Positions 41,379-59,291 of a DNA stretch of 64,000 nucleotides are shown one piece after another. The first letter of the stretch is position 1. Every line of letters begins with the position of its first letter. Origin of the DNA: Klenkia taihuensis (GTDB taxonomy: Bacteria > Actinomycetota > Actinomycetes > Mycobacteriales > Geodermatophilaceae). Below the pieces are notes generated by a model. The model was not told the DNA's origin and ran no database searches. It worked only from the letters and a program-made list of their open reading frames with translations. The stretch covers positions 434,001 to 498,000 of the forward strand of contig NZ_FOMD01000003.1 in assembly GCF_900112525.1 (NCBI RefSeq), written 5' to 3'. Made by a program: the position numbers and the translations under genes.

Positions 41379-42052
41379 CCGCCCTCGTCGAGATGGCCGG
41401 CGTGCACCGCACGTTCGGTCGCGGGGCCGCGGCCGTGCACGCGCTGCGCGGGGTCTCCCTCGCCGTCGCCCCCGGGGAGCTGGTCGCCCTGGTCGGCCGG
41501 TCCGGGTCGGGCAAGACCACCCTGCTCAACCTGGTCGGCGGGCTGGACCGGCCCGACGCCGGCACCGTGCACGTGGCCGGCACCGACGTCGGTGCGCTGG
41601 ACGACGACGGCCTGGTCGCGCTGCGCCGGGACGTCGTCTCGTCGGTCTTCCAGACCTTCGGCCTGGTCCCCGTGCTCACCGCGGCCGAGAACGTCGGCGT
41701 CCCGCTGCGGCTGCGCCGCGTCCCGGCCGCCGAGCGGGAGCAGCGGGTGGCCCGGCTGCTGGACCTGGTCGGGCTCACCCCGCACGCCGCGCAGCGGCCC
41801 GACGAGCTCTCCGGCGGCCAGCAGCAGCGGGTGGCGCTGGCCCGGGCGCTGGCCGGCTCGCCCCGGCTGCTGGTGGCCGACGAGCCCACCGGCCAGCTCG
41901 ACCGGGAGACCGGCCTGGCGGTCATGGCGCTGGTCCGCGGGGTGGTGGAGGCCGAGGGCGTCGCGGCGCTGGTCTCCACGCACGACCCGGTGATGGTGGC
42001 GCTGGCCGACCGGGTGGTGCACGTCGTCGACGGGCAGCTGGTCGACGGGTGA
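41375..42052 (+). CDS. ABC transporter ATP-binding protein (LolD/MacB class)
   Basis: 225 residues, GTG start overlapping the previous stop. Walker A GRSGSGKTT, Q-loop SVFQTFGLVPVLTAAENV, signature LSGGQQQRVALARAL, Walker B LLVADEPTGQLD, H-loop VSTHD. All catalytic motifs are present. With the first ATPase it probably forms a heterodimer powering the two large permeases that follow. Confidence 0.94.
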   Translation: MTALVEMAGVHRTFGRGAAAVHALRGVSLAVAPGELVALVGRSGSGKTTLLNLVGGLDRPDAGTVHVAGTDVGALDDDGLVALRRDVVSSVFQTFGLVPVLTAAENVGVPLRLRRVPAAEREQRVARLLDLVGLTPHAAQRPDELSGGQQQRVALARALAGSPRLLVADEPTGQLDRETGLAVMALVRGVVEAEGVAALVSTHDPVMVALADRVVHVVDGQLVDG

Positions 42053-45000
42053 CGCTGCTCGCCCGGAGCCGCGCCCAGGCCGGGCTGCTCGGCGTCGTCC
42101 TCGTGGTGCTCGTCGCCGGGCTGACCGTGCTGGCCTGCTGCGCGCTGCTGCTCACCACCGGCGCCGACCGGGCGTGGCAGGCCGCGCTGGCCGCCACCCC
42201 GGCCGGGGAGCTGCGGGTCGACGTCGAGCTCACCGACCTGCCCGCCGACCCGGCCGCCGACGCCGCCGCGGCCGGTGCCGAGCTCACCGCGGCCCTGGCG
42301 CCGCTGGACCCCCGGGTCTCGACCTGGACCACCTCGACGCTGCGCGACCTGCCCGCCGGGCCGGGGGGACGGCGGCTGGGCTGGCTGGCCGGCGTCGACG
42401 ACCTGACCGGCCGGGCCGACCTGGTCGCCGGTAGCTGGCCGGGCGCACCCGCGGGGAGGACGTGGCCCGCGGCGCTGCCGGTGGCCGCGGCCGAGGCGCT
42501 GGGTCTGCAGGTGGGCGACGTGGTGGAGCTCGCGCCCAGCACCGGGCTGGAGGGCGCCGCCGACACCGCGCCGGTCACCGTGCAGGTGGTCGGCCTCGTG
42601 CAGCCCCGCGCCGGCGCCTGGGACCGCGACCGGCTCGACGGCGCCGGCACCGTGCCCGACCTGGAGTTCGGCGTCTTCGGCTCGGTGCGGCTGCCGGCCG
42701 CGGGGCCCTTCCTGGTCGACCCGGCCACCCTGCTCGCGGCCGGCCCCGGGGTGGAGCGGATCGCGCTGCGCGCCGCCCCGGACGCGGTCGCCGCCCCCGC
42801 CGGCCTGGGCGACCGGCTGTCGGGGCTGCCCGGCGCGGTGCGGTCGGCCACCGAGGGCACCAGCCGGGTGGTCGACCCGCTGGCCGGCACCCTCGCCGGT
42901 GTGGCCGACCAGCAGGCGGCCACCCGGGGCGCGGTGCTGGCGGTGGCCGTGCTGGCCGGCGCGGTCACCCTGGTCGCGCTGGGCACCGCCGCGCGGGTGC
43001 TCGGCGACCGGCGGCTCGGGGAGAGCGCCCTGCTGCGCGCCCGCGGGGCCACCCGCCGCCAGCTCGCCACCCGGGCGCTGCCGGAGGCCGCCGTCCTCGC
43101 TCTCGTCGCCGCCGCCCTGGCCCTCCCGCTGGCCGCGCTCGCCGTCCGGGGCGTGCTACCCGGCTCGGCGACCGGGGCGCTGCTGCCCGCCGCGGTGGTG
43201 CTGCCGGTGCTCGCCGCCGCCCTCGTCCTGGCCGTGGGTCTGGCGGTGCTCGCCACCCGGCTGCCCGCACCCGGCCGGCCCTCCCCGCGCGGCGCGCTGG
43301 CCCGGTCCGGCGCCGACCTGCTGCTGGCCGGGCTCGCCGCGGTCGCCGTGGCGAGCACGACCGACCGGGCCGGGACCGACCCGGTGCTGGTGGTCGCGCC
43401 GGTGCTGGTGCTCGCCGCCGGCACCGCGCTGTCGCTGCGTCTGCCGCCGCTGCTGGCCCGGCTCGCCGACCGGCGGGCGGTCCGCGGCGACCGCCTGGTG
43501 CCGGTGCTCGTGGCCGGCGACCTGGCCCGCCGGCCACTCGCGTCGGGTGCGGCCGCGCTGCTGGTGCTGGCCACCGCGGCGGTGGTGGCCGCGTCCGGGG
43601 TGCTCGCCACCTGGGCGGTGTCCCGCACCGACCAGGCCGACCTGCGGGTGGGCACCGACCTCGCCGTCCCCGCCGACGGCCTCTCCGCCGCCGCGGTGCG
43701 CGCGGCCACCGGCGGCACGGTCAGCCCGGTGCTGGAGCGGGCGGTGTCGTTCGGGTCCGTGCTGCGCAGCGGCGGCGCCGCGCCCCGGCTGGTCGCCGTG
43801 GACGCCGCGGTCGCCGCCGGCGTGCTGCGCGGCCGGCTGCCCGCGGGCCAGGACTGGGGGTCCGCCACCGCGGCGCTGGTGCCCGACCCGGCGCCCGCCG
43901 GCCCGGAGGGTCCCGGACCGGTCACCGTCACCGGCGTCGCCCGCGGCCAGGCCGTGCAGGTGACCACCACGGTGGTGCTGTCCGGTGACGGCCCCGCAAC
44001 GGTGACCGGCGAGGCCGTACCGCTGGACGGCAGCCCGCGGGACGCCGGCGTCGTCGTGCCCGCCGGCCGCGCCGTCACCGCGGTGGTCCTCGACGTCGCG
44101 GTCGACGAGGTCACGGTCGACCCCGAGCAGACGGTGCCGTTCGCCGTCGAGGTCACCCTGCCCGGCGCGGACGCCGGCTGGTCGGTCACCGTCCCCGGCA
44201 CGGACGGCGGGGTGATGGACCCGCGGCTGGCCGACGGCGCGCTGCAGCTGACCGGCCGGCTCTTCCCGACCGGGCTGGCCGTCGCCCCCGACCGCGTGGT
44301 GCTCACCCCGCAGCCGCCGCCGGCCGCGCTCCCGGTCGTGCTGTCCGGGGGGCTGGCCGGCGACCTCGGGCTGGGCGACGGCGACGCGGTCTCCCTGGCC
44401 GTCGGCGACGCCGCGGTCCGCGCCCAGCTGGTCGGCACGGTGCCCGACGTGCCCTCGGTCCCCGGCGCCCCCGGTGTGCTGGCCGACGCCGGCACGCTGA
44501 CCGGCGTGCTGCTCGCCGCCGGGGAGCTGCCCGGCCCGCCGCAGGCCTGGTGGGTCGGCGGGCCGCGCCCCGGCACCGCGCTGCCCGGCGCGGTGACCCG
44601 CACCGGTCTGGCCGACGAGCTGCGCACCGGCCCCCTGCAGGTCGGCCTGCCCACCGCGCTGGCCCTGGTGGCCGGCGGCGGGCTGCTGCTGGGGCTGACC
44701 GGCGCGGTCCTGCAGGCCGCGGCCGTGCGCAGCGGCGGGCGCGCGGAGGCCGCCCGGCTGCTCGGGCTCGGCGTGCCCCGGCGCACGGTGCGGGGTGTCG
44801 TGGCCGCCCGGCACGTCGCCGGCACGGTGCTCGCCGTGCTCCTCGGCGCCGTGGTCGGGGCGGTCGGGACCGTGCTGGTGGCGCCGGCGGTGAGCGGTGC
44901 GGCGGTGCCGGCCGCCACGGTGCAGACCCCGTGGGTGACCTGGGCCGCCGCGGCGGCGGGGCTGGCGCTGGTGGGGTCCGCGGTCGTGCTGCCGGTGGCG

Positions 45001-45054
45001 CGGGCGCTGGTGCGGGTCGACGTCCCCGCGGTGCTCCGGGAGGGCAGCTCGTGA
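42049..45054 (+). CDS. Large FtsX-type ABC permease
   Basis: 1001 residues; GTG overlaps the ATPase stop. N-terminal membrane helix (about 10-37), a large extracytoplasmic beta-rich domain, then a core of FtsX helices at about 285-405 with GDRRLGESALLRARGATRRQ (the conserved cytoplasmic coupling segment), a second extracytoplasmic domain (about 530-860), and a final helix set with RAEAARLLGLGVPRRTVRGV. Such twin-core permeases extract or push lipoproteins, peptides or drugs at the outer face of the membrane without moving them fully across. Substrate unknown. The final codon overlaps the next gene. Confidence 0.88.
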   Translation: MTLLARSRAQAGLLGVVLVVLVAGLTVLACCALLLTTGADRAWQAALAATPAGELRVDVELTDLPADPAADAAAAGAELTAALAPLDPRVSTWTTSTLRDLPAGPGGRRLGWLAGVDDLTGRADLVAGSWPGAPAGRTWPAALPVAAAEALGLQVGDVVELAPSTGLEGAADTAPVTVQVVGLVQPRAGAWDRDRLDGAGTVPDLEFGVFGSVRLPAAGPFLVDPATLLAAGPGVERIALRAAPDAVAAPAGLGDRLSGLPGAVRSATEGTSRVVDPLAGTLAGVADQQAATRGAVLAVAVLAGAVTLVALGTAARVLGDRRLGESALLRARGATRRQLATRALPEAAVLALVAAALALPLAALAVRGVLPGSATGALLPAAVVLPVLAAALVLAVGLAVLATRLPAPGRPSPRGALARSGADLLLAGLAAVAVASTTDRAGTDPVLVVAPVLVLAAGTALSLRLPPLLARLADRRAVRGDRLVPVLVAGDLARRPLASGAAALLVLATAAVVAASGVLATWAVSRTDQADLRVGTDLAVPADGLSAAAVRAATGGTVSPVLERAVSFGSVLRSGGAAPRLVAVDAAVAAGVLRGRLPAGQDWGSATAALVPDPAPAGPEGPGPVTVTGVARGQAVQVTTTVVLSGDGPATVTGEAVPLDGSPRDAGVVVPAGRAVTAVVLDVAVDEVTVDPEQTVPFAVEVTLPGADAGWSVTVPGTDGGVMDPRLADGALQLTGRLFPTGLAVAPDRVVLTPQPPPAALPVVLSGGLAGDLGLGDGDAVSLAVGDAAVRAQLVGTVPDVPSVPGAPGVLADAGTLTGVLLAAGELPGPPQAWWVGGPRPGTALPGAVTRTGLADELRTGPLQVGLPTALALVAGGGLLLGLTGAVLQAAAVRSGGRAEAARLLGLGVPRRTVRGVVAARHVAGTVLAVLLGAVVGAVGTVLVAPAVSGAAVPAATVQTPWVTWAAAAAGLALVGSAVVLPVARALVRVDVPAVLREGSS

Positions 45055-47666
45055 GGTGGGGCGTGCCGCTGCGCGGCGGGCGCGCCCAGGTGCTCGCCGC
45101 CCCCGCCGCGTGGGTGGTGGCGCTGCTGGTGGTCGCGCTGGCCACCGCGCTGGCCGTGGTGGTTCCCGCGGCCGTCGCGGCCACCGCGGACGACGCCGTC
45201 CGGGCGCAGGCGGCGGCTGCCGGGACCGGGGCGGACACCGTCGTCACCGCCCCGTTCCCCGAGGACCCGAGCGGCACCGTGCGGCGCGAGGCCGGGGCGG
45301 CCGACGACACCCGGGCCCTCGCCGCCGACCTCGCGGGCCGGCTGCCCGGGCCCCTGGCCGGCGCGGTGGGCACGCCGGTGGCCGCGGCCGGCACCCGCGA
45401 CCTGCCGCTGACGTTGCCCGCCCCGGTCGCCGTCGCGCTGGGCCCGACCGAGCTGCGGCTGACCTGGGTGGCCCGCGCGGGCGGCGCCGCGGTCACCTGG
45501 ACGGCGGGGGCGGCCCCCGGCGTGGCGGCCGCGGACGGCGAGGTGCAGGCCGGGCTCGCCGCCCCGGTGGCCGCCGCGCTCGGGGTGGGACCCGGGGACC
45601 GGCTGGCCGCGCGCACGCCGGACGGTGTCGACGTCGACGTCGTGGTCAGCGGGGTCTTCACCGCCGACGATCCCACCGACCCGGTCTGGGTGCGCACGCC
45701 CCGCCTGCTCGGGCCCGCGACCCGGGGGAGCGGTGCGGCCCTGCGCACGGCGGTCGCGGCGCTGCTGTCCGACGACGCGCTGCCCGATGCCCGGGTGGCC
45801 GCGGGCCCGCTGACCCGCACGGTGACCTTCCCGGCCGCGCCGGGCGGCCTCACCGCGCCCGGTGCCGACGCCGTCGCCCGCGCGGTCACCGAGGTGCGCG
45901 CGGCGCCGGTGGTGCTGGGGGTGTCCCCGCTGCCGCGGGTGGACAGCCGGCTCGGCGACCTGCTCGACGCCGCCACCGCCACCCTGGACGCCGCCCGCGC
46001 CCAGGCCGCGGTCCTCGTCGCCGCGGTCGGCCTGGCCACCGCGCTGGTGCTGCTGCTGGCCGCGGCCGCGCTGGTCGGCCGGCGCGGCCGCGTGCTCGGG
46101 CTGTCCCGGGCCCGCGGCGGGTCGCTGCCGGGGCTGGCCACGGCGCTGCTGGTGGAGGGCGGGGTGCTGACCGTGGCCGGCGCCGGCGCCGGGCTCCTGC
46201 TGGGGATCGTGCTGGCGCCCGGGCCCGTCCCGTGGGGTGCCGCAGCGGCCGGGGTGCTGCCGGTGGCGCTGGCCGGGGTTCTCGCCCTGCCGGTGTTGGG
46301 CGTGCGCGCCGCCGACGCCGCGACCGGTGGTCGGCGGGTGCCGCTGGACGCCCGGGCCCGCACCCGGGCCCGGCGGGAGACCCGGCTGCGGCGCGGCGCG
46401 GTCGACCTGGCCGTGGTGCTGCTCGCCGTCGGCGCGGTGCTGGCGCTGCGGTCCCGCGGCGTCCCGGGCGGGCTGCTCGCCGTCGCGGCCCCCGCGCTCG
46501 CCGTCCTCGCCGGGGCGGTGCTGGTGGCCCGGGTGCAGCCGGCGCTGACCGGGGCCCTGCTCGGGCCGGCCCGCCGGTCGCGCGGCGCGGTGCCGCTGCT
46601 GGCCGCCGCCGGTGCCCGCTCGACCGCGGTGCTCGCCCCGGTCGCGCTGACCGCCGTCGTCGCCCTCGCGGTGACCGTGGTGTGCCTGGGGACGACGGCG
46701 CGGGCCGGCCAGGTCGAGGCGTCCTGGACCGCGGTCGGTGCCGACGCCGCCGTCACCGCCGACCCGCTGCCCGACCTCGACCTGCCCGACCTCGACCTGG
46801 CCGGCGCGCCCGGCGTCGACCTCGCCGTGCCCGCGCGGGTGGCCGAGGGCGTGCAGCTGTCCACCGCCGCCGGCGGCGCCCGGACCCGGGTCGTGGTCGT
46901 CGACCCCGGCGCCTACGCGGAGCTGGTGGGCAGCACGCCGCTGCCCGACGTCGCGGGCCTCGAGGGCCTCGAGGGCCTCGGCGACCGGGCGCTGGTCACC
47001 CCCGACGTGGGCGGCGACGGCACCGTGCTGCTGGACGGGCAGGCCGTGCGGTTCACCGTCGCCGGCACGCTCCCGCCGGGTCCCACCACGGTGCTCCTGC
47101 CGCCCGCCGCCGTCCCCGCCGACCTGGCCGCGCCCGACGTGCTCTGGCTGACCGGCCCGGGCGCCGCGGCCGCCGCCGCCACCGTCCCCGGCGGGACCGT
47201 CGAGCTGCGCGCCGACCGGCTCGCCGCGGTGGCCGACGCGCCGCTGCCGCGGGGGCTCGCCGTCCTCGGGGCGGTCGCCGCCGGCGTCCTGCTCGACCTG
47301 GGAGTGCTCGCCGTCGTCCTCGGCGGGGTCGCGGGCGCGCGTCGGCGGCGGGCGACGTCCGGGGTGCTGCGGACCCTGGGGCTCGGCGAGCGGCAGGCCC
47401 GTGCGGTGACCCTGCTGGAGCTGCTGCCCGGGGTGCTGGCCACCGCCGTCCCCGGGGCGCTGCTGGGGGTGGCCGTCGCCGCGCTGGTGTCCGGGCCGCT
47501 GGGCCTGCGGCTGCTCACCGGGCAGGCGACGGACCCGGCGCTGGCCGTCCCGTGGTGGCTGCCGGTCCTGCTGGTGCCGCCGCTGCTCGCGGTCGGCGTG
47601 ACCGTGCTGGCCGAGGCCCGGGCCCGCCGGCGGGTGCCGCTGGGCACCGTGCTGCGCGAGCCCTGA
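45051..47666 (+). CDS. Large FtsX-type ABC permease, second subunit
   Basis: 871 residues from GTG overlapping the previous stop. Same architecture as its partner: one N-terminal helix, an extracytoplasmic domain to about 300, helices near 310-430 with GRRGRVLGLSRARGGSLPGL, a second domain, and the C-terminal core with ARRRRATSGVLRTLGLGERQ. Short DNA tandem repeats near 46771-46803 (PDLDLPDLDL) and 46957-46980 (GLEGLEGLG) lie in the second domain. It ends the four-gene ABC operon; the convergent SDR gene stops 3 bp away. Confidence 0.87.
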   Translation: MRWGVPLRGGRAQVLAAPAAWVVALLVVALATALAVVVPAAVAATADDAVRAQAAAAGTGADTVVTAPFPEDPSGTVRREAGAADDTRALAADLAGRLPGPLAGAVGTPVAAAGTRDLPLTLPAPVAVALGPTELRLTWVARAGGAAVTWTAGAAPGVAAADGEVQAGLAAPVAAALGVGPGDRLAARTPDGVDVDVVVSGVFTADDPTDPVWVRTPRLLGPATRGSGAALRTAVAALLSDDALPDARVAAGPLTRTVTFPAAPGGLTAPGADAVARAVTEVRAAPVVLGVSPLPRVDSRLGDLLDAATATLDAARAQAAVLVAAVGLATALVLLLAAAALVGRRGRVLGLSRARGGSLPGLATALLVEGGVLTVAGAGAGLLLGIVLAPGPVPWGAAAAGVLPVALAGVLALPVLGVRAADAATGGRRVPLDARARTRARRETRLRRGAVDLAVVLLAVGAVLALRSRGVPGGLLAVAAPALAVLAGAVLVARVQPALTGALLGPARRSRGAVPLLAAAGARSTAVLAPVALTAVVALAVTVVCLGTTARAGQVEASWTAVGADAAVTADPLPDLDLPDLDLAGAPGVDLAVPARVAEGVQLSTAAGGARTRVVVVDPGAYAELVGSTPLPDVAGLEGLEGLGDRALVTPDVGGDGTVLLDGQAVRFTVAGTLPPGPTTVLLPPAAVPADLAAPDVLWLTGPGAAAAAATVPGGTVELRADRLAAVADAPLPRGLAVLGAVAAGVLLDLGVLAVVLGGVAGARRRRATSGVLRTLGLGERQARAVTLLELLPGVLATAVPGALLGVAVAALVSGPLGLRLLTGQATDPALAVPWWLPVLLVPPLLAVGVTVLAEARARRRVPLGTVLREP

Positions 47667-47669
47667 CCC

Positions 47670-48473
47670 CTACACGGCCCGGGCCGACAACCCGCCGTCC
47701 ACCGGCAGCAGCACACCGGTGACGTAGCGGGACTCGTCCGAGGCGAGGAACAGCGCGGCGTCGGCGACGTCCTGCGCGGTGCCCATCCGGCCGGTCGGGC
47801 TCAGCGCGTCCCGCTCGGCGCGCACCTGCTCGACCGCGGCGTTCCCGGCCAGCTGCGCGTAGACCAGCGGGGTGTCCACCAGCCCCACCAGCAGCGCGTT
47901 CACCCGCACGCCCCGGTCGGCGTACTGCAGCGCGAGGCTGCGGGTCAGCTGGTTCACCCCCGCCTTGGCCGCCGCGTACCCGGGGTAGGGGTAGCCGGTC
48001 CACCGGATCGAGGCGGTCGAGGAGACGTTCACCATCGACCCGCCCCGGACCAGCAGGTGCGGCAACGTGGCCTGCGCGGTCAGGAAGACGCTGTCCAGGT
48101 TGAGCGACAGCGCGCGGTGCCAGTCGGCCAGCGTCAGGTCGTCGACGGAGCCCAGCACGGTGGCGCCGACGGTGTTCTGCACGACGTCCAGCCGGCCGGT
48201 GCGGTCCACCACCGCCGCGACGGCGGCCCGCACCTGGCCGGGGTCGGTGACGTCGGCGACCAGCGCGACGGCGTCGCCGCCGGCGGCCCGCACCGCCGCG
48301 ACCGTGCGCTCGGCGGCCGCGGCGTCCCGGTCGACGACGGCGACGTGCGCGCCGTGCCGGGCGAAGGTGCGGGCCGACGCGGCCCCGATGGAGGTGACGC
48401 CGTCGGGGCCGCCGGTCGTCGTCCCGCCGCCGAAGACGACGGCGGTGCGACCGGCCAGGCGCAGGTCAGGCAC
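47670..48473 (-). CDS. SDR-family oxidoreductase with enlarged nucleotide-binding loop
   Basis: 267 residues. The glycine-rich loop is longer than normal: VVFGGGTTTGGPDGVTSIG in place of TGxxxGIG. The rest is classical SDR: DRD after strand 2, VADVTDP, NVSSTAS with the catalytic Ser, Y-x3-K in YPGYAAAKAG, and the C-terminal YVTGVLLPVDGG. It oxidises or reduces an alcohol or ketone with NAD(P). GTG start at 48473 overlaps the upstream alpha/beta-hydrolase gene by 8 bp, so the two likely act in one pathway. Confidence 0.9.
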   Translation of the reverse strand: MPDLRLAGRTAVVFGGGTTTGGPDGVTSIGAASARTFARHGAHVAVVDRDAAAAERTVAAVRAAGGDAVALVADVTDPGQVRAAVAAVVDRTGRLDVVQNTVGATVLGSVDDLTLADWHRALSLNLDSVFLTAQATLPHLLVRGGSMVNVSSTASIRWTGYPYPGYAAAKAGVNQLTRSLALQYADRGVRVNALLVGLVDTPLVYAQLAGNAAVEQVRAERDALSPTGRMGTAQDVADAALFLASDESRYVTGVLLPVDGGLSARAV

Positions 48474-53077: not shown

Positions 53078-53995
53078 ATGACGACGAGCTACGAAGGACG
53101 CCCGCTGCCCCGCCCCGACGAGGAGGTGGTCGACCAGGGGCTCCGGTTCGACCTGGACACCCTGCTCAGCCGCCGCCGGGTGCTCGGGTTCCTCGGCATC
53201 GGTGCCGCCGGCCTCGGCCTGGCCGCCTGCGGGGGCAGCAGCACGACGACCAGGTCGGCGACCGGCACGGCGACCGCGGCCACCACGTCGACCGGGGAGA
53301 TCCCGGAGGAGACCGCCGGGCCCTACCCGGGCGACGGGTCCAACGGCACGAACGTGCTGACCGAGAGCGGCATCGTGCGCTCGGACATCCGCTCCAGCTT
53401 CGGCTCCGCGTCCGGCACGGCCGAGGGCATCCCGATGACGCTGACGCTGACCGTGCAGGACCTCGCGAACGGGGTGCCCTTCGAGGGTGCCGCGGTCTAC
53501 GTCTGGCACTGCGACCGGGACGGGGCCTACTCGCTGTACTCCGAGGGCATCACCGGCGAGAACTACCTGCGCGGCGTCCAGGTGGCCGACGCCGACGGGA
53601 CGGTGACCTTCACCAGCGTCTTCCCGGCCTGCTACTCCGGCCGGTGGCCGCACATCCACTTCGAGGTCTACCCCGACGTCGACTCCATCACCGACTCGAC
53701 CAACGCGATCGCCACCTCGCAGGTCGCCCTGCTGCAGGACGTCTGCGAGACCGTCTACGCCACCAGCGGCTACGAGCAGTCGGTGCGCAACCTGGCGCAG
53801 GTCAGCCTGGCCACCGACAACGTGTTCTCCGACGGCGCGGAGCTCGAGACCCCGACCATCACCGGCGACGTGTCCTCGGGCTACACGGTGTCGATGGGCG
53901 TCGGCGTCGACACGACCACCGCGGCCGGTGGCGGATCGATGGGCGGTGGCACGGGTGGTGGCCCCGGCGGCGGGGGTCAGCCGCCGGGGCGCTGA
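53078..53995 (+). CDS. Exported intradiol-dioxygenase-fold lipoprotein
   Basis: 305 residues from ATG at 53078. About 30 residues precede SRRRVLGFLGIGAAGLGLAA plus CGG, a twin-arginine-like signal peptide with a lipobox Cys near residue 49. A Ser/Thr linker follows, then the intradiol dioxygenase fold: ETAGPYPGDGSNG, GVPFEGAAVYVWHCDRDGAY (first Tyr ligand region), and FPACYSGRWPHIHFEVYPDV (Tyr and the two His ligands). The tail is Gly/Pro-rich and disordered. Cytosolic relatives cleave catechols with Fe(III); exported versions are known but their substrates are poorly defined. It is convergent with the catabolic cluster that starts 5 bp later. Confidence 0.88.
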   Translation: MTTSYEGRPLPRPDEEVVDQGLRFDLDTLLSRRRVLGFLGIGAAGLGLAACGGSSTTTRSATGTATAATTSTGEIPEETAGPYPGDGSNGTNVLTESGIVRSDIRSSFGSASGTAEGIPMTLTLTVQDLANGVPFEGAAVYVWHCDRDGAYSLYSEGITGENYLRGVQVADADGTVTFTSVFPACYSGRWPHIHFEVYPDVDSITDSTNAIATSQVALLQDVCETVYATSGYEQSVRNLAQVSLATDNVFSDGAELETPTITGDVSSGYTVSMGVGVDTTTAAGGGSMGGGTGGGPGGGGQPPGR

Positions 53996-53999
53996 GGGG

Positions 54000-54860
54000 T
54001 CAGGCCGGCTGCAGCACGAAGTCGTAGGTGGCCTCGAACCACGGGCCCTCGACCGGGGTGCCGTCGGGGAACGTCCCGCCCTCGTGCGGCTCGTAGTGCA
54101 CGACCAGCTGCTCCTTGACGCCGAAGACGACGTCGCTGTCCAGGTAGTCGGCGCCCTCCTGGAACAGGTGCGTGATGAGCGGCCGGTAGCCCGGGACGTC
54201 GAACCGCACGTGGAAGTGCGCCGGGCGGTACTCCGAGATGTCGGTGCGCGAGATGAGGTCGCCGACCGGCCCGTCCATCGGGATGGTGTAGCCCAGGGGC
54301 GCCACCGTGCGGATGGCGAACGCGCCGTCCTCCCGGGAGGTGTACTTCGCGCGCAGCCGGGCCTCGTCGACCTCGGCGTGCTGGGTCTCGTACAGCCCGT
54401 CGTCGTCGGCCTGCCACACGTCGAGCACCGCGCCGCCGACCGGGTTGCCCTCGAGGTCGACCACCCGGCCGTGCAGGAACAGCGGGGTGCCGCGCACGCC
54501 CTCGGACATGTCCTCGCCGTAGCCGAGCTCGGGGGAGCCGTCGATGTGGAAGGGGCCGAGCACCGTGGCCGGGGTGGCGCGGGGGTCCAGCCGCTGGTTC
54601 ATCTGCACGACCAGCATCGACAGGCCCAGCACGTCGGAGGTGAGGATGAACTCCTCGCGCTTCTCGTCGCTGATCTGCCCGGTGCGGTTGAGCCACTGGA
54701 CGGCGGCCATCCACTCGGCCTCGGTCAGCCGCACCTCGCGGGCGAAGGCGTGCAGGTGCCGCACCAGCGCGCTCATCAGCTCGGCGGTGCGGGGGTCGTG
54801 CGCGGTGGCCCACCGGGCGGCCGCCAGGTCGGTGATGTTGTCCTCGGTGACGAGCTGCAC
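54000..54860 (-). CDS. Cytoplasmic intradiol ring-cleavage dioxygenase (catechol/hydroxyquinol type)
   Basis: 286 residues; GTG at 54860 is chosen for GGAGG 5 nt upstream. The N-terminal dimerisation domain (VRHLHAFAREVRLTEAEWMA, SDEKREEFILTSDVLGLSM) is that of catechol and hydroxyquinol 1,2-dioxygenases. The catalytic half has VLGPFHIDGSPE, LDVWQADDDGLYE (Tyr ligand), and ISEYRPAHFHVRF (Tyr, His, His ligands for Fe(III)). It opens a dihydroxy- or trihydroxybenzene between the hydroxyls. It is the last gene of the CaiB-lyase-dioxygenase operon. Confidence 0.92.
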   Translation of the reverse strand: MQLVTEDNITDLAAARWATAHDPRTAELMSALVRHLHAFAREVRLTEAEWMAAVQWLNRTGQISDEKREEFILTSDVLGLSMLVVQMNQRLDPRATPATVLGPFHIDGSPELGYGEDMSEGVRGTPLFLHGRVVDLEGNPVGGAVLDVWQADDDGLYETQHAEVDEARLRAKYTSREDGAFAIRTVAPLGYTIPMDGPVGDLISRTDISEYRPAHFHVRFDVPGYRPLITHLFQEGADYLDSDVVFGVKEQLVVHYEPHEGGTFPDGTPVEGPWFEATYDFVLQPA

Positions 54861-54893
54861 TGCTGCCTCCAACGGTCGGGTCAGGATCAGGGA

Positions 54894-55688
54894 TCAGCTC
54901 GGGTCGGGGGCGACCGAGCGGTTGTTCAGGTCCACGGACAGGAAGATGTCGTTGGCCACCGGGTGCCGCAGCTCCTCGGCGAGCTGGCCGATGAGGCCGG
55001 CGGTGCGGGCGAGCAGGGCGAACCCGCGCAGCAGCGGCAGCGGGAGACCGAGGTCGGCCAGCGCGGCGCCGCAGACGCCGGCGCCGTTGAGCGGCAGCGT
55101 CTTGCCCAGCACCTGCGGGTGCACCCGGCCGATGGCGGCGAACAGCGCCAGGTGCGGGCCGGTCTGGTCCTCCTCGGCGGCGATCTGCATCAGCCGGGGG
55201 GTACGGGGGTCGCCGTCCTTGTGCACGTGGTGGCCCAGGCCGGGGACGAACCGGCCGGCCTCCCGCTCGCGCTGCACGACGGCCAGGGCGAGGGCGTCCC
55301 AGCCGGCGTCGTCGGTGGGCAGGGTGTCCTGGGCCTGCAGCACGTCGTCGAGGAAACGGCCGCAGTCCTCGGTGACGCCGAGGAAGCGGGAGCCGCCGCC
55401 GAGCAGCCCGGCGGCCAGCGCGCCCTGCACGCTGTCCGGCGCGGACAGGTAGGTGAGCCGGGTGACGATCGCGGTGGGGGTGAAGCCGTGGTCGGCGAGC
55501 GCGGCCAGCACCGCCTCGAACACCCGCACCTGCCCGGGCGTGGGCCGGCGCTGGGTGGCCAGCCAGAAGGCCAGCTCGCCGAACCCGACGGTGCCCATGA
55601 CGTCACGGGCCAGGTCGGTGCCCAGCAGCGTGATGGTCTCCCGGGACGACGCCCCGAGCGCGGTCTCGTAGGTGCGCGGTTCAGTCAC
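54894..55688 (-). CDS. Citryl-CoA lyase-like protein (citrate synthase superfamily)
   Basis: 264 residues, much shorter than citrate synthase (about 430). It keeps the citrate synthase C-terminal core: GVTEDCGRFLDDVLQAQDTL, FVPGLGHHVHKDGDPRTPRL (catalytic His region) and LPLNGAGVCGAALADLGLPL, ending LAEELRHPVAND. Proteins of this size cleave or form a C-C bond in a CoA thioester (citryl-CoA or a similar 3-hydroxyacyl-CoA). GTG at 55688 overlaps the CoA-transferase end by 8 bp, so the transferase probably makes its substrate. Confidence 0.85.
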   Translation of the reverse strand: MTEPRTYETALGASSRETITLLGTDLARDVMGTVGFGELAFWLATQRRPTPGQVRVFEAVLAALADHGFTPTAIVTRLTYLSAPDSVQGALAAGLLGGGSRFLGVTEDCGRFLDDVLQAQDTLPTDDAGWDALALAVVQREREAGRFVPGLGHHVHKDGDPRTPRLMQIAAEEDQTGPHLALFAAIGRVHPQVLGKTLPLNGAGVCGAALADLGLPLPLLRGFALLARTAGLIGQLAEELRHPVANDIFLSVDLNNRSVAPDPS

Positions 55689-56826
55689 CGGGGGCCTCCA
55701 GCCAGGCGCGGATCTCGGCGCCGTGCTCGTCCAGCGCCGGCGGGGGGAGCCGGTAGGACGGCGGGGTCGCCGAGAAGGTGATCGGGTTGCGGATCGAGGG
55801 GATGCCACCCGGCCGGACGACGGGGTCCAGGCCCACCTGCTCGGCGAAGGCGACCCCGGCGTCCACGGTGTTGATCGGCCCGCACGGCACCCCGGCGGCG
55901 AAGATCAGCTCGAACCACTCCTGCTTGCCGCGGGTGCGCAGCCGCTCCACCAGCAGCGGGCGCAGCTCGTCGCGGTTGGCCGTGCGGTCCTCGTTGCGGG
56001 CGAACCGCGGGTCGTCGGCCAGCTCGGGGACGCCGAGCACCTCGACCAGCTTGCGGAACTGGCCGTTGTTCCCGGCGGTGATGATGAGCTCGCCGTCGGC
56101 GCACTCCATCGGCTCGTAGGGGAACAGCGACGGGTGGCTGTTGCCCATCCGGAACGGCACGACCTCCCCGGCGACGGCGGCCGAGCTCTGGTTGACCATG
56201 CCCGACAGCGCCGAGGCCATCAGGCTGACCTGCACGTGCTGGCCCGTGCCGGTCTCGTGGCGGGCGTTGAGCGCGGACAGCACGCCGATGGTGGCGTGCA
56301 GGCCGGCGACGACGTCGAACACCGAGATGCCCGCGCGGTAGGGCTCGCCGTCGGGGGAGCCGGTGAGGCTCATCAGCCCGGAGATGGCCTGCACGATGAG
56401 GTCGTAGCCGGGCAGGTGCGACCCGCCCTCCTGGCTGCCGAACCCGCTGATCGAGGCGTACACGACGCCGGGGTTGGTCGCCGAGACCGACTCGTAGTCC
56501 AGGCCGAAGCGGGCCAGCCCGCCCGGCTTGAAGTTCTCCACCAGGACGTCGGCGCGGCGGGCCAGCTCCTGCGCGGCGGCCCGGTCGCCCTCGTCCTTGA
56601 GGTCGAGCGCCACCGAGCGCTTGTTGCGGTTGACGCCCAGGTAGTACGTGCTGACCCCGTCGCGCACCGGCGGGGACCAGTGCCGGGTGTCGTCGCCGGC
56701 GGGGCCCTCCACCTTGACCACCTCGGCGCCCAGGTCGGCGAGCAGCATCGTCGAGTACGGGCCGGCCAGCACGCGGGAGAAGTCCGCGACGAGCAGGCCG
56801 GCCAGCGGGCCGGTGGGGGAGGTCAT
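55681..56826 (-). CDS. CaiB/BaiF-type (family III) CoA-transferase
   Basis: 381 residues, full length. Family marks: VADFSRVLAGPYSTMLLADL, GAEVVKVEGP, GDDTRHWSPP, LGVNRNKRSVALDLK, LVENFKPGGLARFGLDY, and the catalytic Asp in LPGYDLIVQAISGLMSLTG. The family moves CoA between carboxylic acids through an enzyme-bound anhydride. It is first in the operon with the lyase and the dioxygenase. Its ATG lies 25 bp from a palindrome that also occurs before the divergent amidohydrolase gene. Confidence 0.92.
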   Translation of the reverse strand: MTSPTGPLAGLLVADFSRVLAGPYSTMLLADLGAEVVKVEGPAGDDTRHWSPPVRDGVSTYYLGVNRNKRSVALDLKDEGDRAAAQELARRADVLVENFKPGGLARFGLDYESVSATNPGVVYASISGFGSQEGGSHLPGYDLIVQAISGLMSLTGSPDGEPYRAGISVFDVVAGLHATIGVLSALNARHETGTGQHVQVSLMASALSGMVNQSSAAVAGEVVPFRMGNSHPSLFPYEPMECADGELIITAGNNGQFRKLVEVLGVPELADDPRFARNEDRTANRDELRPLLVERLRTRGKQEWFELIFAAGVPCGPINTVDAGVAFAEQVGLDPVVRPGGIPSIRNPITFSATPPSYRLPPPALDEHGAEIRAWLEAPGD

Positions 56827-56850
56827 CGGGACGGCGCGCTCCTCGGCTCT

Positions 56851-56864
56851 CGGACAGCTGTCCG
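56851..56864. promoter_or_regulatory. Operator CGGACAGCTGTCCG before the CoA-transferase
   Basis: Perfect 14-bp palindrome (CGGACA-GC-TGTCCG), 24 bp from the CaiB-type ATG. The same CGGACA-N2-TGTCCG core stands at 56974-56987 before the divergent amidohydrolase gene. It is the size expected for an IclR-family site. Confidence 0.65.
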
Positions 56865-56904
56865 GTGGGGTCGGTGCCGCAGTCTCACCACCCCGCGGCT
56901 GGCC

Positions 56905-56933
56905 TGTCAACCGCGGGCGGGGACCGCTTGACA
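56905..56933. promoter_or_regulatory. Back-to-back -35 boxes of the divergent promoters
   Basis: TTGACA on the plus strand (56928-56933) and TTGACA on the minus strand (56910-56905) point away from each other. Weak -10 elements follow at usual distance (CAGGGT at 56952-56957 on plus; TGAGAC near 56887-56882 on minus). Perfect -35 with poor -10 suggests regulated promoters. Confidence 0.5.
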
Positions 56934-56936
56934 CGG

Positions 56937-56953
56937 TGTCGTGGGTCACGACA
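56937..56953. promoter_or_regulatory. Second palindrome TGTCGTG-GGT-CACGACA
   Basis: Perfect 7-bp inverted repeat with a 3-bp centre, lying between the -35 and the -10 of the amidohydrolase promoter. It is a different sequence from the paired operators, so a second regulator or a second binding mode is possible. Confidence 0.45.
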
Positions 56954-56972
56954 GGGTGTGCGCGACCGCCCA

Positions 56973-56988
56973 GCGGACAGGTGTCCGC
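56973..56988. promoter_or_regulatory. Operator GCGGACA-GG-TGTCCGC before the amidohydrolase
   Basis: Perfect 16-bp palindrome, 21 bp before the amidohydrolase ATG. It shares CGGACA-N2-TGTCCG with the site at 56851-56864; the two sit at nearly the same distance from the start codons they face. Confidence 0.65.
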
Positions 56989-57009
56989 CAGCCCCGCGAG
57001 GAGACGACG

Positions 57010-58464
57010 ATGTCCAGCCCCGACACCCGCCCGCTGGTCCTGCGCGGCGGCACCGTGCTGACGATGGACGACGCGCACACCGTGCTGCCACAGGCCGACG
57101 TCCTGGTCGTCGACGGCGAGGTGGCCGCCGTCGGCACCGGGCTCGACGTCCCCGAGGGCACCGAGGAGGTCGACGCCGCCGGCGGCGTCGTCATGCCGGG
57201 CATGATCGACACGCACCGGCACATGTGGCAGACCGCGATGCGCGGCTACGGGGCCGACTGGACCCTCACCCAGTACTTCGTCTGGTACTACCTCGAGCAC
57301 GGGAAGACCTTCCGGCCCGAGGACGTCCACGCGGGCAACCTGCTGAGCGCGTGGGAGGGCCTGGAGGCCGGGGTCACCACCACCGTCGACTGGAGCCACG
57401 GGCTGCGGAGCGTCGAGCACGCCGAGGCCGCCGCCGACGCCCTGCTCGCCGTCCCCGGCCGGTTCGTGCTGGCCTACGGCAACATCCAGGCCGGGCCCTG
57501 GGAGTGGACCGCCGACCCGGCCGTGCAGGCGTTCCTGCGGCGGCGCGCCGACGAGGGCAGGCTCGGGCTGCAGCTGGCCTTCGACGTCACCGGCGACCCG
57601 TCCTTCCCGGAGAGGGCCGCCTTCGAGGTGGCCCGCGAGCTCGGCCTCCCGGTCACCACGCACGCCGGCGTCTGGGGCGCGACGTCCGACGCCTCGATCC
57701 AGCTCATGCACGACGCCGGGTTCATGACGCCGGAGACGGTCTACGTGCACGCCGCCTCGCTCTCCACCGACAGCTACCACCGCATCGCCGCCACCGGCGG
57801 GTCGGTGTCGGTCTCCACCGAGAGCGAGCAGAGCGCCGGGCAGGGCTACCCGCCCACCTGGCAGGTCCGCAAGCACGGCATCCCGGTCTCGCTGTCGATG
57901 GACACCAGCGTCTGGTGGTCGGCCGACCTGTTCTCGGCCATGCGCACCACGCTGGGCGCCGACCGCTCGCGCGAGCACCTCGAGGCGCACGTCGAGGGGA
58001 ACACGGTCACCCAGGTGCACCTGCGCGCCGAGCACGTCGTCGACTGGGCCACCCGCGGCGGCGCGAAGGCGATCGGCCGCGACGACCTGGGCTCGCTGGA
58101 GCCGGGGAAGACCGCCGACGTCGTGCTGATCAAGAACGACAGGTCGCCGGTGTCCTTCCCGCTGCTGAACCCCTACGGCCACGTGGCCTTCCAGGCCCAG
58201 CGCGGCGACGTGCACACCGTGCTCGTCGGTGGCCGGGTCGTGAAGCGCGCCGGCGAGCTGGTGGGCTACGACGGGGCCGCCGTCCGGTCGGCCGTGGAGT
58301 CGACGGTGGAGCACCTGCGCGGGGCGATGGGGGAGGAGACCTGGCAGGCCGGCATGAACCCGGCGATGCCCGAGGACGGCGACGTGCTCGACAACCCCTA
58401 CACCTACACCGACTACAAGAGCGACGAGACCCGCGAGGCCCGGGGCTCGCTGTTCGGGTCCTGA
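57010..58464 (+). CDS. Amidohydrolase/deaminase of the TRZ/ATZ (cytosine deaminase-like) group
   Basis: 484 residues; ATG at 57010 follows GCGAGGAGACGACG. Metal ligands: THRHMWQ (H-x-H), VTTHAGVWG (His), TVYVHAAS (His), and LSMDTSVWWS (Asp). N- and C-terminal beta strands (LRGGTVLTMDDAHTVLPQAD; DVHTVLVGGRVVKRAGELVG) complete the composite domain. The group removes amino groups or chlorine from purines, triazines and other N-rings, or opens rings. An earlier in-frame start at 56941 would lie inside the operator region. It is followed by the IclR gene with a 1-bp overlap. Confidence 0.9.
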   Translation: MSSPDTRPLVLRGGTVLTMDDAHTVLPQADVLVVDGEVAAVGTGLDVPEGTEEVDAAGGVVMPGMIDTHRHMWQTAMRGYGADWTLTQYFVWYYLEHGKTFRPEDVHAGNLLSAWEGLEAGVTTTVDWSHGLRSVEHAEAAADALLAVPGRFVLAYGNIQAGPWEWTADPAVQAFLRRRADEGRLGLQLAFDVTGDPSFPERAAFEVARELGLPVTTHAGVWGATSDASIQLMHDAGFMTPETVYVHAASLSTDSYHRIAATGGSVSVSTESEQSAGQGYPPTWQVRKHGIPVSLSMDTSVWWSADLFSAMRTTLGADRSREHLEAHVEGNTVTQVHLRAEHVVDWATRGGAKAIGRDDLGSLEPGKTADVVLIKNDRSPVSFPLLNPYGHVAFQAQRGDVHTVLVGGRVVKRAGELVGYDGAAVRSAVESTVEHLRGAMGEETWQAGMNPAMPEDGDVLDNPYTYTDYKSDETREARGSLFGS

Positions 58465-59291
58465 TGGCCGGGCGCGGGCACGGCCCGGACTTCGTCGAGG
58501 CGCTGGCCCGGGGGCTCGACGTGCTGTCGTGCTTCTCGGACCGGCGCCCGGTGATGACGCTGTCGGAGGTGGCGGCCGCGGCGGACCTCGCCCGGCCCAC
58601 CGCCCGCCGGCTGCTGCTCACCCTCGAGGAGCTGGGCTACGCCGCGGCGTGCGAGGGCGGGTTCCGGCTGACCCCGAAGGTGCTGGGCCTGGGCATGGCC
58701 TACGTCGGGTCGCTGGGCCTGTGGGACATCGCCCGGCCGCACCTGGAGTCGCTGGTCGCGCGCACCGGGGAGTCCTCGTCGATGGCCCAGCTCGACGGCT
58801 CGGACATCGTCTACGTCGCGCGGGTCGCCGTCCCGAAGCTGATCACGCTGCGGGTGGAGATCGGCACGCGGTTCCCGGCGGTGCAGACCAGCCAGGGCAA
58901 GGTCCTGCTCGCCGCGCTCGGGCCCGACGAGCTGGCCGGGACCCTGACGCAGCCCTCCCGGTCGGGGCTGCCCCGCTACATCGGGCGGACGGCGGCCCAG
59001 CTGCACGAGGAGCTGGCCGAGGTCCGGGCGCGCGGGTGGGCGCTGGCCGACGAGGAGCTGGCGCCGGGCGTCCGCTCGGTCGCGGTCCCGGTGCGGGACG
59101 GCGCCGGGGTGGTGCAGGCCGCGGCCAACGTCACCGTGCACGCCGCCGAGACCACCCGGGAGACGCTGCTGGAGGACCACCTGCCGCTGCTGCTGCGCAC
59201 CGCCGGCGAGATCAGCGGCGAGTGGGCGGCCTGGCAGCGCCGCCCGCACGCGACGGTTCAGCCCGGGACGTCGGTGGCCGCGGCGACCTGA
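58464..59291 (+). CDS. IclR-family transcriptional regulator (PcaR/CatR-like)
   Basis: 275 residues; ATG shares its A with the previous stop (TGATG). N-terminal winged helix: FVEALARGLDVLSCFSDRRP, MTLSEVAAAADLARPTARRL. C-terminal effector domain: MAQLDGSDIVYVARVAVPKL, IGTRFPAVQTSQGKVLLAAL and VRSVAVPVRDGAGVVQAAAN. This is the subgroup that controls protocatechuate and related aromatic operons by binding a pathway acid. It lies in the amidohydrolase operon and is the obvious owner of the paired palindromes. Its 3' end overlaps the convergent SDR gene by 34 bp. Confidence 0.93.
   Translation: MAGRGHGPDFVEALARGLDVLSCFSDRRPVMTLSEVAAAADLARPTARRLLLTLEELGYAAACEGGFRLTPKVLGLGMAYVGSLGLWDIARPHLESLVARTGESSSMAQLDGSDIVYVARVAVPKLITLRVEIGTRFPAVQTSQGKVLLAALGPDELAGTLTQPSRSGLPRYIGRTAAQLHEELAEVRARGWALADEELAPGVRSVAVPVRDGAGVVQAAANVTVHAAETTRETLLEDHLPLLLRTAGEISGEWAAWQRRPHATVQPGTSVAAAT

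Follow-up and report, generated by a model that had tools for sequence, protein, structure and literature searches.

Intradiol and extradiol ring-opening enzymes replace each other in place in a conserved catabolic operon of Klenkia taihuensis and its relatives

What might be degraded by an operon that joins a ring-cleavage dioxygenase to an amidohydrolase, a coenzyme A (CoA)-transferase and a citryl-CoA-lyase-like protein, next to an IclR-type regulator? This question is raised by five genes in a stretch of 64,000 nucleotides from Klenkia taihuensis, hereafter called the window, to which all base numbers refer unless a locus is named. The five genes are a real, conserved catabolic unit, and our strongest result is that intradiol and extradiol ring-opening enzymes have repeatedly taken each other's place in this operon, which is otherwise conserved and has its own palindrome. 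The genes and sites discussed here are as follows:

54000..54860, minus strand: intradiol ring-cleavage dioxygenase, hydroxyquinol 1,2-dioxygenase-like (PF00775, PF04444), the exchangeable module
54894..55688, minus strand: citryl-CoA-lyase-like protein of the citrate-synthase family, GTG start (NF004868 match)
55681..56826, minus strand: family III (CaiB-type) CoA-transferase, opening the left operon (PF02515 match)
56827..57009, no strand: divergent promoter region common to both operons, between the two divergent starts
56851..56864, no strand: putative IclR operator CGGACAGCTGTCCG, a perfect palindrome before the CoA-transferase operon
56974..56987, no strand: putative IclR operator CGGACAGGTGTCCG, a palindrome before the amidohydrolase
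57010..58464, plus strand: amidohydrolase-superfamily hydrolase, PRK08204-like (PF01979 match)
58464..59291, plus strand: IclR-type regulator related to PcaR/PcaU/PobR (PF01614, PF09339 matches)

The preliminary description of this DNA had reported these five genes with an overlap of 8 bp in one operon and 1 bp in the other; all were found in the sequence, and the families were matched by profile. The stop codon of the CoA-transferase (55683-55681) lies within the start of the lyase gene (GTG at 55688), and base 58464 is common to the amidohydrolase stop and the IclR ATG. For the dioxygenase, a GTG start at 54860 (MQLVTEDN..., as in locus L101) seems more likely than a TTG start at 54872.

The lyase was used to scan genome contigs, and the best 80 loci from named genomes were kept; more exist. 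Together with 3 plasmid loci and 11 loci from further genomes that may repeat named species, they gave a pool of 94 lyase loci. The ring-opening gene was typed within 5 kb of the lyase, and an enzyme with at least 55% identity to that of the window was counted as the same intradiol enzyme. A LigAB-type extradiol enzyme was found in 54 loci, this intradiol enzyme in 30, another intradiol enzyme (38-41% identity to the window's) in 2, a VOC protein in 4 and no such gene in 4; intradiol and LigAB enzymes never occurred together (0/94). A fixed five-gene cluster was thus rejected, because the ring-opening gene varies, with LigAB replacing the intradiol enzyme in more than half of the loci. Among the four loci without a dioxygenase, two contigs end 9 and 72 bases past the lyase (L029 and L040, respectively) and one begins inside the IclR gene (Streptomyces L063), so that L035 alone looks like a real absence. 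The LigB protein of the relatives matches PF02900 (97.9 bits), and the match of its small partner to LigA is weak and below cut-off (10/12 members, best E=0.0008). The window's cluster has no class III extradiol dioxygenase; the genome does contain a LigB relative (33%) at another site.

The exchange has occurred many times. A tree was built from 91 rows of joined lyase and CoA-transferase sequences, three loci with missing or short hits being omitted. On it the intradiol/LigAB label changes 11 times, and at least 8 of these changes are forced by well-supported (starred) branches; shuffled labels gave about 24 changes on the same tree. Four rows have long end branches and their placement is therefore unsure. 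Close relatives give the clearest picture of how the exchange is made. Homology of the window to five LigAB-type loci of the Klenkia group ends at 54900-54901 in all five and restarts at 53934-53974 in four of them, the fifth (L130) having no match at the restart; the piece missing in the LigAB-type loci is therefore just the intradiol gene. Two of the LigAB-type loci, L026 and L027 (the latter from Klenkia terrae), keep 88-94% identity to the window for the amidohydrolase, 93% for the lyase, 86-87% for the CoA-transferase and 85-88% for the IclR regulator. Across nine Klenkia-group genomes, one of them 73% complete and one with LigB in broken pieces, this intradiol enzyme (90-100% identity) occurs in 4, LigB (90-100%) in 5 and both in none, the next-best paralogues reaching at most 46% and 33%, respectively. 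In one Klenkia-group genome (L129, 7785-9462), the lyase and LigB reading frames are each in pieces, by decay or sequencing error. Rhodococcus and Actinomycetospora provide further examples of this replacement, the former on comparison of plasmid L104 (LigAB) with plasmid L111 (intradiol), the latter on comparison of L057 with L062. In most other intradiol and LigAB loci the ring-opening gene directly follows the lyase, and several Blastococcus-group loci have an MDR (zinc-dehydrogenase-like) gene between the two.

A third version of the cluster (L087, L100, L103, L135) has a VOC protein near the CoA-transferase and lyase, and neither amidohydrolase, LigAB nor intradiol enzyme. This VOC protein is a doubtful candidate for a type I extradiol enzyme: its best solved match is a glyoxalase (9u42, E=1e-12), and homoprotocatechuate 2,3-dioxygenase is matched only at E=0.15.

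Does the rest of the operon stay together? At thresholds of at least 60% identity for the amidohydrolase and the CoA-transferase and at least 55% for IclR, these genes were kept in 74, 78 and 77 of the 80 named loci, respectively. The co-occurrence of five families expected from the preliminary description thus stands for the amidohydrolase, IclR and CoA-transferase, which stay with the lyase, and fails for the dioxygenase, which is not constant. The six loci lacking the amidohydrolase are L033, L090 and L095 (contig starting inside the cluster for the last two) and Streptomyces L063, L087 and L100. One of them, Pseudonocardia sulfidoxydans L033 (10004-11752), has only the lyase and the intradiol dioxygenase: within the 20.8 kb seen, the genes for the CoA-transferase, IclR and the amidohydrolase are all missing. 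Among the matches listed from named genomes, the closest lyase locus is that of Klenkia brasiliensis (98%). The lyase cluster is present in 9/9 genomes of the genus Klenkia and is patchy across the phylum: of 246 genomes sampled, 15 (counting that of the window) have the lyase at E<=1e-30. Since the cluster core is shared by loci from at least five named families of actinobacteria, the grouping is beyond chance. Related sets are found in Rhizobiales, where plasmids of Martelella (L116) and Sinorhizobium (L113) carry the lyase, CoA-transferase, amidohydrolase (30-34%) and LigAB (LigB 63-64%).

The promoter region points in the same direction. In the 4.3-Mb genome, the strict pattern CGGACANNTGTCCG has two sites only, both in the intergenic region between the divergent operons. 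A CGGAC-N4-GTCCG core was found upstream of the CoA-transferase in all 77 named loci that could be tested, whereas random windows of that size drawn from these loci contained it in 73 of 2000 cases. The other three of the 80 loci were dropped for want of a usable CoA-transferase hit or of 200 bases upstream, and since the core was refined after the loci had been viewed, this contrast is slightly favourable. The first pattern, derived from the window, matched 67/84 loci (some plasmid loci included) at no more than one mismatch, against 46/1900, and gave no match in the plasmid loci L104, L109, L111, L112 and L113 even at two mismatches. A looser pattern, CGGACRNNYGTCCG, occurs in three further places in the genome, which were set aside because the pattern written backwards, used as a control, matched just as often (5 and 5 per strand). 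The IclR regulator reaches 256.6 bits against TIGR02431, below the cut-off of 284.75, and is a relative only of PcaR, PcaU and PobR. It is predicted to bind both palindromes and to control both divergent operons through them. The earlier proposal of a single IclR-controlled catabolic unit is thus borne out by conserved synteny and by a palindrome whose strict form is confined to the divergent promoter region.

Which ring could be opened in either way? Intradiol cleavage gives a diacid and extradiol cleavage normally gives a semialdehyde; the two reactions lead to one product if the carbon next to the diol carries an oxygen as well, which is the case in pyrogallol and gallate. Since both cleavages converge on rings with three adjacent oxygens, we infer a substrate of the pyrogallol or gallate type, and the identity of 86-94% of the downstream enzymes across the swap suggests that the ring-fission product is probably the same. 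We therefore propose, with confidence and doubt about evenly balanced, that the cluster is a dedicated catabolic unit for such a ring, possibly reached from methoxylated plant phenols. In the first of four predicted steps, the dioxygenase would open the ring, either by an intradiol cut between two hydroxyl-bearing carbons or, with the LigAB enzyme, by an extradiol cut at the third oxygen-bearing carbon. Both cuts would yield one common product, a 2-hydroxymuconate-type acid or its 2-pyrone lactone, which would explain why the two enzymes are interchangeable. The amidohydrolase, in a step whose place in the order is presumed, would hydrolyse or hydrate the acid or lactone to a hydroxy acid. The CaiB-type enzyme would then transfer CoA to this hydroxy acid, and the citrate-synthase-family lyase would split the resulting thioester, releasing acetyl-CoA and a small oxo acid. 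The substrate and every reaction of this route are predictions.

The cluster would share features with the cleavage of gallate (GalA-D) and the 4,5-cleavage of protocatechuate, namely a class III extradiol enzyme in most relatives and possibly a step of the amidohydrolase superfamily on the ring-fission acid or lactone, LigI and LigJ having comparable roles in the protocatechuate 4,5-pathway. It differs in having a CoA-transferase and a citryl-CoA-lyase-like enzyme where an aldolase would be expected, in a ring-opener that can be intradiol and in an amidohydrolase of PF01979 nearest to TrzA/AtzA-type proteins. Intermediates of the gallate pathway are named in a figure legend of PMC12314914.

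The two main versions might instead act on different rings, of the catechol or hydroxyquinol type and of the protocatechuate type, with the amidohydrolase, CoA-transferase and lyase as a tolerant common lower module for related ring-fission acids. The modular nature of the ring-opening gene, of which the VOC loci provide a third kind, fits this idea, as do the DLH and Amidohydro_2 genes, each found in 7 of 46 LigAB loci and in 0 of 28 intradiol loci. An MDR-type dehydrogenase, present in 52 of the 94 loci, lies near 36 of the 54 LigAB loci, where it could oxidise a semialdehyde; however, it is missing in the other 18, those of Klenkia included, and also occurs with the intradiol enzyme (16/30). 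Moreover, within the Klenkia group the downstream enzymes and the regulator keep 85-94% identity whichever ring-opener is present, and extradiol and intradiol products are ordinarily of different kinds, semialdehydes and diacids, respectively. We consider two different rings unlikely.

The intradiol enzyme itself brings another ring into consideration. Its closest solved matches are PnpC (3n9t, E=1e-77) and 1tmx (E=2e-76), and it carries the Tyr/Tyr/His/His ligand motifs as well as the Asp of FIL-x-SDVLG common to hydroxyquinol dioxygenases. The plain hydroxyquinol pathway, with which the cluster shares an intradiol dioxygenase of the same family, was rejected: no maleylacetate reductase is present among the 13 protein genes that were taken into the profile scan (window 49-63 kb), and replacement by LigAB misfits it. 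A hydroxyquinol route that dispenses with this reductase could be imagined, in which intradiol cleavage gives maleylacetate, CoA is placed on the acetate end and the lyase, which lacks its catalytic Asp, hydrolyses the beta-keto thioester, giving acetyl-CoA together with maleate or fumarate. In favour of this route, it would end in central metabolites, PnpC and hydroxyquinol dioxygenases are the solved enzymes nearest to the dioxygenase, and a LeuD-like gene adjoins the Rhodococcus versions L104 and L111. However, an extradiol cut of hydroxyquinol does not lead to maleylacetate, yet most loci have LigAB; the amidohydrolase is left without a step; and another intradiol paralogue (43-46%), present in 8/9 Klenkia-group genomes, could serve hydroxyquinol. 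This route appears distinctly improbable.

The presence of an intradiol dioxygenase and of a PcaR/PobR-related IclR regulator also recalls the beta-ketoadipate pathway, in contrast to which no cycloisomerase, enol-lactone hydrolase or thiolase was found among the 13 scanned genes. The preliminary description had noted that beta-ketoadipate genes were missing, which is correct for the cluster and not for the genome: close to a 38% intradiol paralogue, contig C6 (locus L127) has a muconate-cycloisomerase-family gene, a muconolactone-isomerase-like gene (130.2 bits against a cut-off of 130.6) and a gene for a pcaF-like thiolase, all three of these cat-like genes being under the cut-offs of curated models.

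The amidohydrolase matches PF01979 (97.0 bits) and reaches 376.1 bits with NF006056, below the cut-off of 391. Its metal ligands of the HxH, His, His, Asp type (H69, H71, H218, H247, D298) are invariant in 27/27 aligned rows. At the Glu of the H-x-x-E site, seen in HLAEN (3hpa) and HLHET (3lnp), the amidohydrolases have THAGVWG or another sequence without Glu, and the Glu occurs in 0 of 79 aligned rows. The gene lies within 5 kb in 52/54 LigAB, 26/30 intradiol and 0/4 VOC loci (one VOC contig being only 6.4 kb); this association suggests that the enzyme most likely acts next to ring cleavage. A structure model of the protein had a mean pLDDT of 58.8 and was not used. The preliminary description had this enzyme strip nitrogen or chlorine from a ring, which would then be oxidised and opened. 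Its nearest relatives, TrzA/AtzA- and deaminase-type members of the superfamily, would suit such a role. Against it stand the missing Glu, the lack of a constant hydroxylase (PobA-like proteins occur in 8/80 loci) and the absence of the amidohydrolase, together with the usual dioxygenases, from all four VOC loci. A deaminase or dechlorinase function is thus weakened, and we regard the whole route as very unlikely.

The CoA-transferase matches PF02515 over residues 8-368 (389.9 bits, at full length), and its nearest NCBIfam models, those of succinate--glutarate, oxalate and mesaconate CoA-transferases, are all below cut-off. The lyase-like protein exceeds the cut-off of the NF004868 citryl-CoA lyase model (268.3 bits against 193), matches 6hxp at E=6e-24 and retains GxGH and DPR; it has LNGAG where 6hxp and the ATP-citrate lyase-type 6nzy region have LNVDG. 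In true citryl-CoA lyases, the Asp of LNVDG is catalytic. Among relatives of the lyase, a CaiB protein and LeuCD accompany it in Cupriavidus (L105), and another CoA-transferase, a CitE-like protein and PrpD do so in L106, contexts that suggest citrate-like hydroxy acids. The Cupriavidus set likewise has a CoA-transferase beside a PRK06224-type lyase; unlike it, the present cluster joins ring-cleavage and amidohydrolase genes to the pair. The Asp is also missing in the distant PRK06224-like citryl-CoA lyases L105, L106, L108, L109, L113 and L116, and the annotation of that group as citryl-CoA lyases may therefore be doubtful.

How might the ring be supplied? In a minority of the best 80 named loci there are upstream hints, namely a CYP199-like P450 (at least 70% identity) in 5 and the PobA-like hydroxylase mentioned above, and L103 has a ring-hydroxylating oxygenase with a PDR/VanB-family reductase. 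MetE-catalytic-domain-like proteins lie in the fetched stretch of 18/80 named loci (e.g. L028:11779-12828 and L112:8959-9984), and that of Actinomycetospora is 71% identical to that of an Aminobacter plasmid; they may be part of the pathway, perhaps for methyl transfer to a thiol. The P450 and PobA links hint at feeding from (methoxy)benzoate or phenol. Taken together, the P450, PobA, MetE-like and L103 oxygenase genes suggest that methoxylated or hydroxylated aromatic acids might feed in at some loci.

Several observations weigh against a pyrogallol- or gallate-type pathway. The catalytic Asp of the lyase is replaced by Ala, Ser or Thr in 23/23 and 97/97 aligned rows (a few rows of the latter being the same gene twice), and the enzyme may thus not perform the classical retro-Claisen reaction. 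Once acetyl-CoA is released from the acids expected of gallate or pyrogallol, the remainder would be 2,4-dioxoglutarate or formylpyruvate, a C5 or C4 fragment that is not an obvious central metabolite. The intradiol enzyme is closest to hydroxyquinol dioxygenases and has their FIL-x-SDVLG Asp, which may make carboxylated rings, gallate for example, poor substrates. The MDR gene is without a place in the proposed route, and only a minority of the loci have the P450 or PobA link. The strict palindrome is not shared by any transporter or upper-pathway gene in the genome of the window. In the 24.9 kb seen of the Aminobacter plasmid (L112), the amidohydrolase is missing although LigAB, the lyase and the CoA-transferase are there, and two Rhizobium loci (L114, L115) have LigAB relatives (LigB 67% and 63%) with no lyase, CoA-transferase or amidohydrolase nearby.

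The preliminary description had also suggested an undescribed lower pathway ending in CoA transfer and carbon-carbon cleavage. This is plausible; no description of the gene set was found in the literature searched, most subscription journals being outside its coverage; the lyase without its Asp counts against the last step. We suggest tentatively, leaning slightly to the side of doubt, that the cluster represents an undescribed aerobic pathway for vicinally trioxygenated rings, with a non-deaminating amidohydrolase, a CoA thioester and an Asp-less lyase, in which non-homologous dioxygenases have been swapped in place at least eight times.

The cluster is flanked on one side by a gene for a putative secreted intradiol-like protein (53078-53995, plus strand) and a DNA polymerase-exonuclease gene, and on the other by SDR, NUDIX, thioesterase and AKR genes. 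The intradiol-dioxygenase-like protein, convergent with the cluster, has an N-terminal lipobox-like stretch (LGLAACGGSS), and a homologue is found at the same flank in 7/8 Klenkia-group loci, whichever dioxygenase the cluster carries. Elsewhere in the window, positions 42000-48000 have 81-82% G+C and an AT skew of -0.26 to -0.34, unlike the remaining sequence.

Whether a ring is opened by intradiol or extradiol cleavage is usually regarded as the branch point that sets the course of an entire aromatic pathway. A conserved operon that trades both cleavage types at one gene position while its other enzymes are kept is therefore a natural experiment, and the swap narrows the substrate to rings where both cuts converge. 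A dioxygenase able to convert pyrogallol to something that can be metabolised further is named in PMC6628648 as a goal for future work. Should the ring prove to be of the pyrogallol or gallate type, the present cluster may supply the enzyme wanted there, and this would bear on the use of syringyl lignin. If the proposed route is true, it would also provide a plausible function for the family of Asp-less lyases and for an amidohydrolase that lacks the deaminase Glu.

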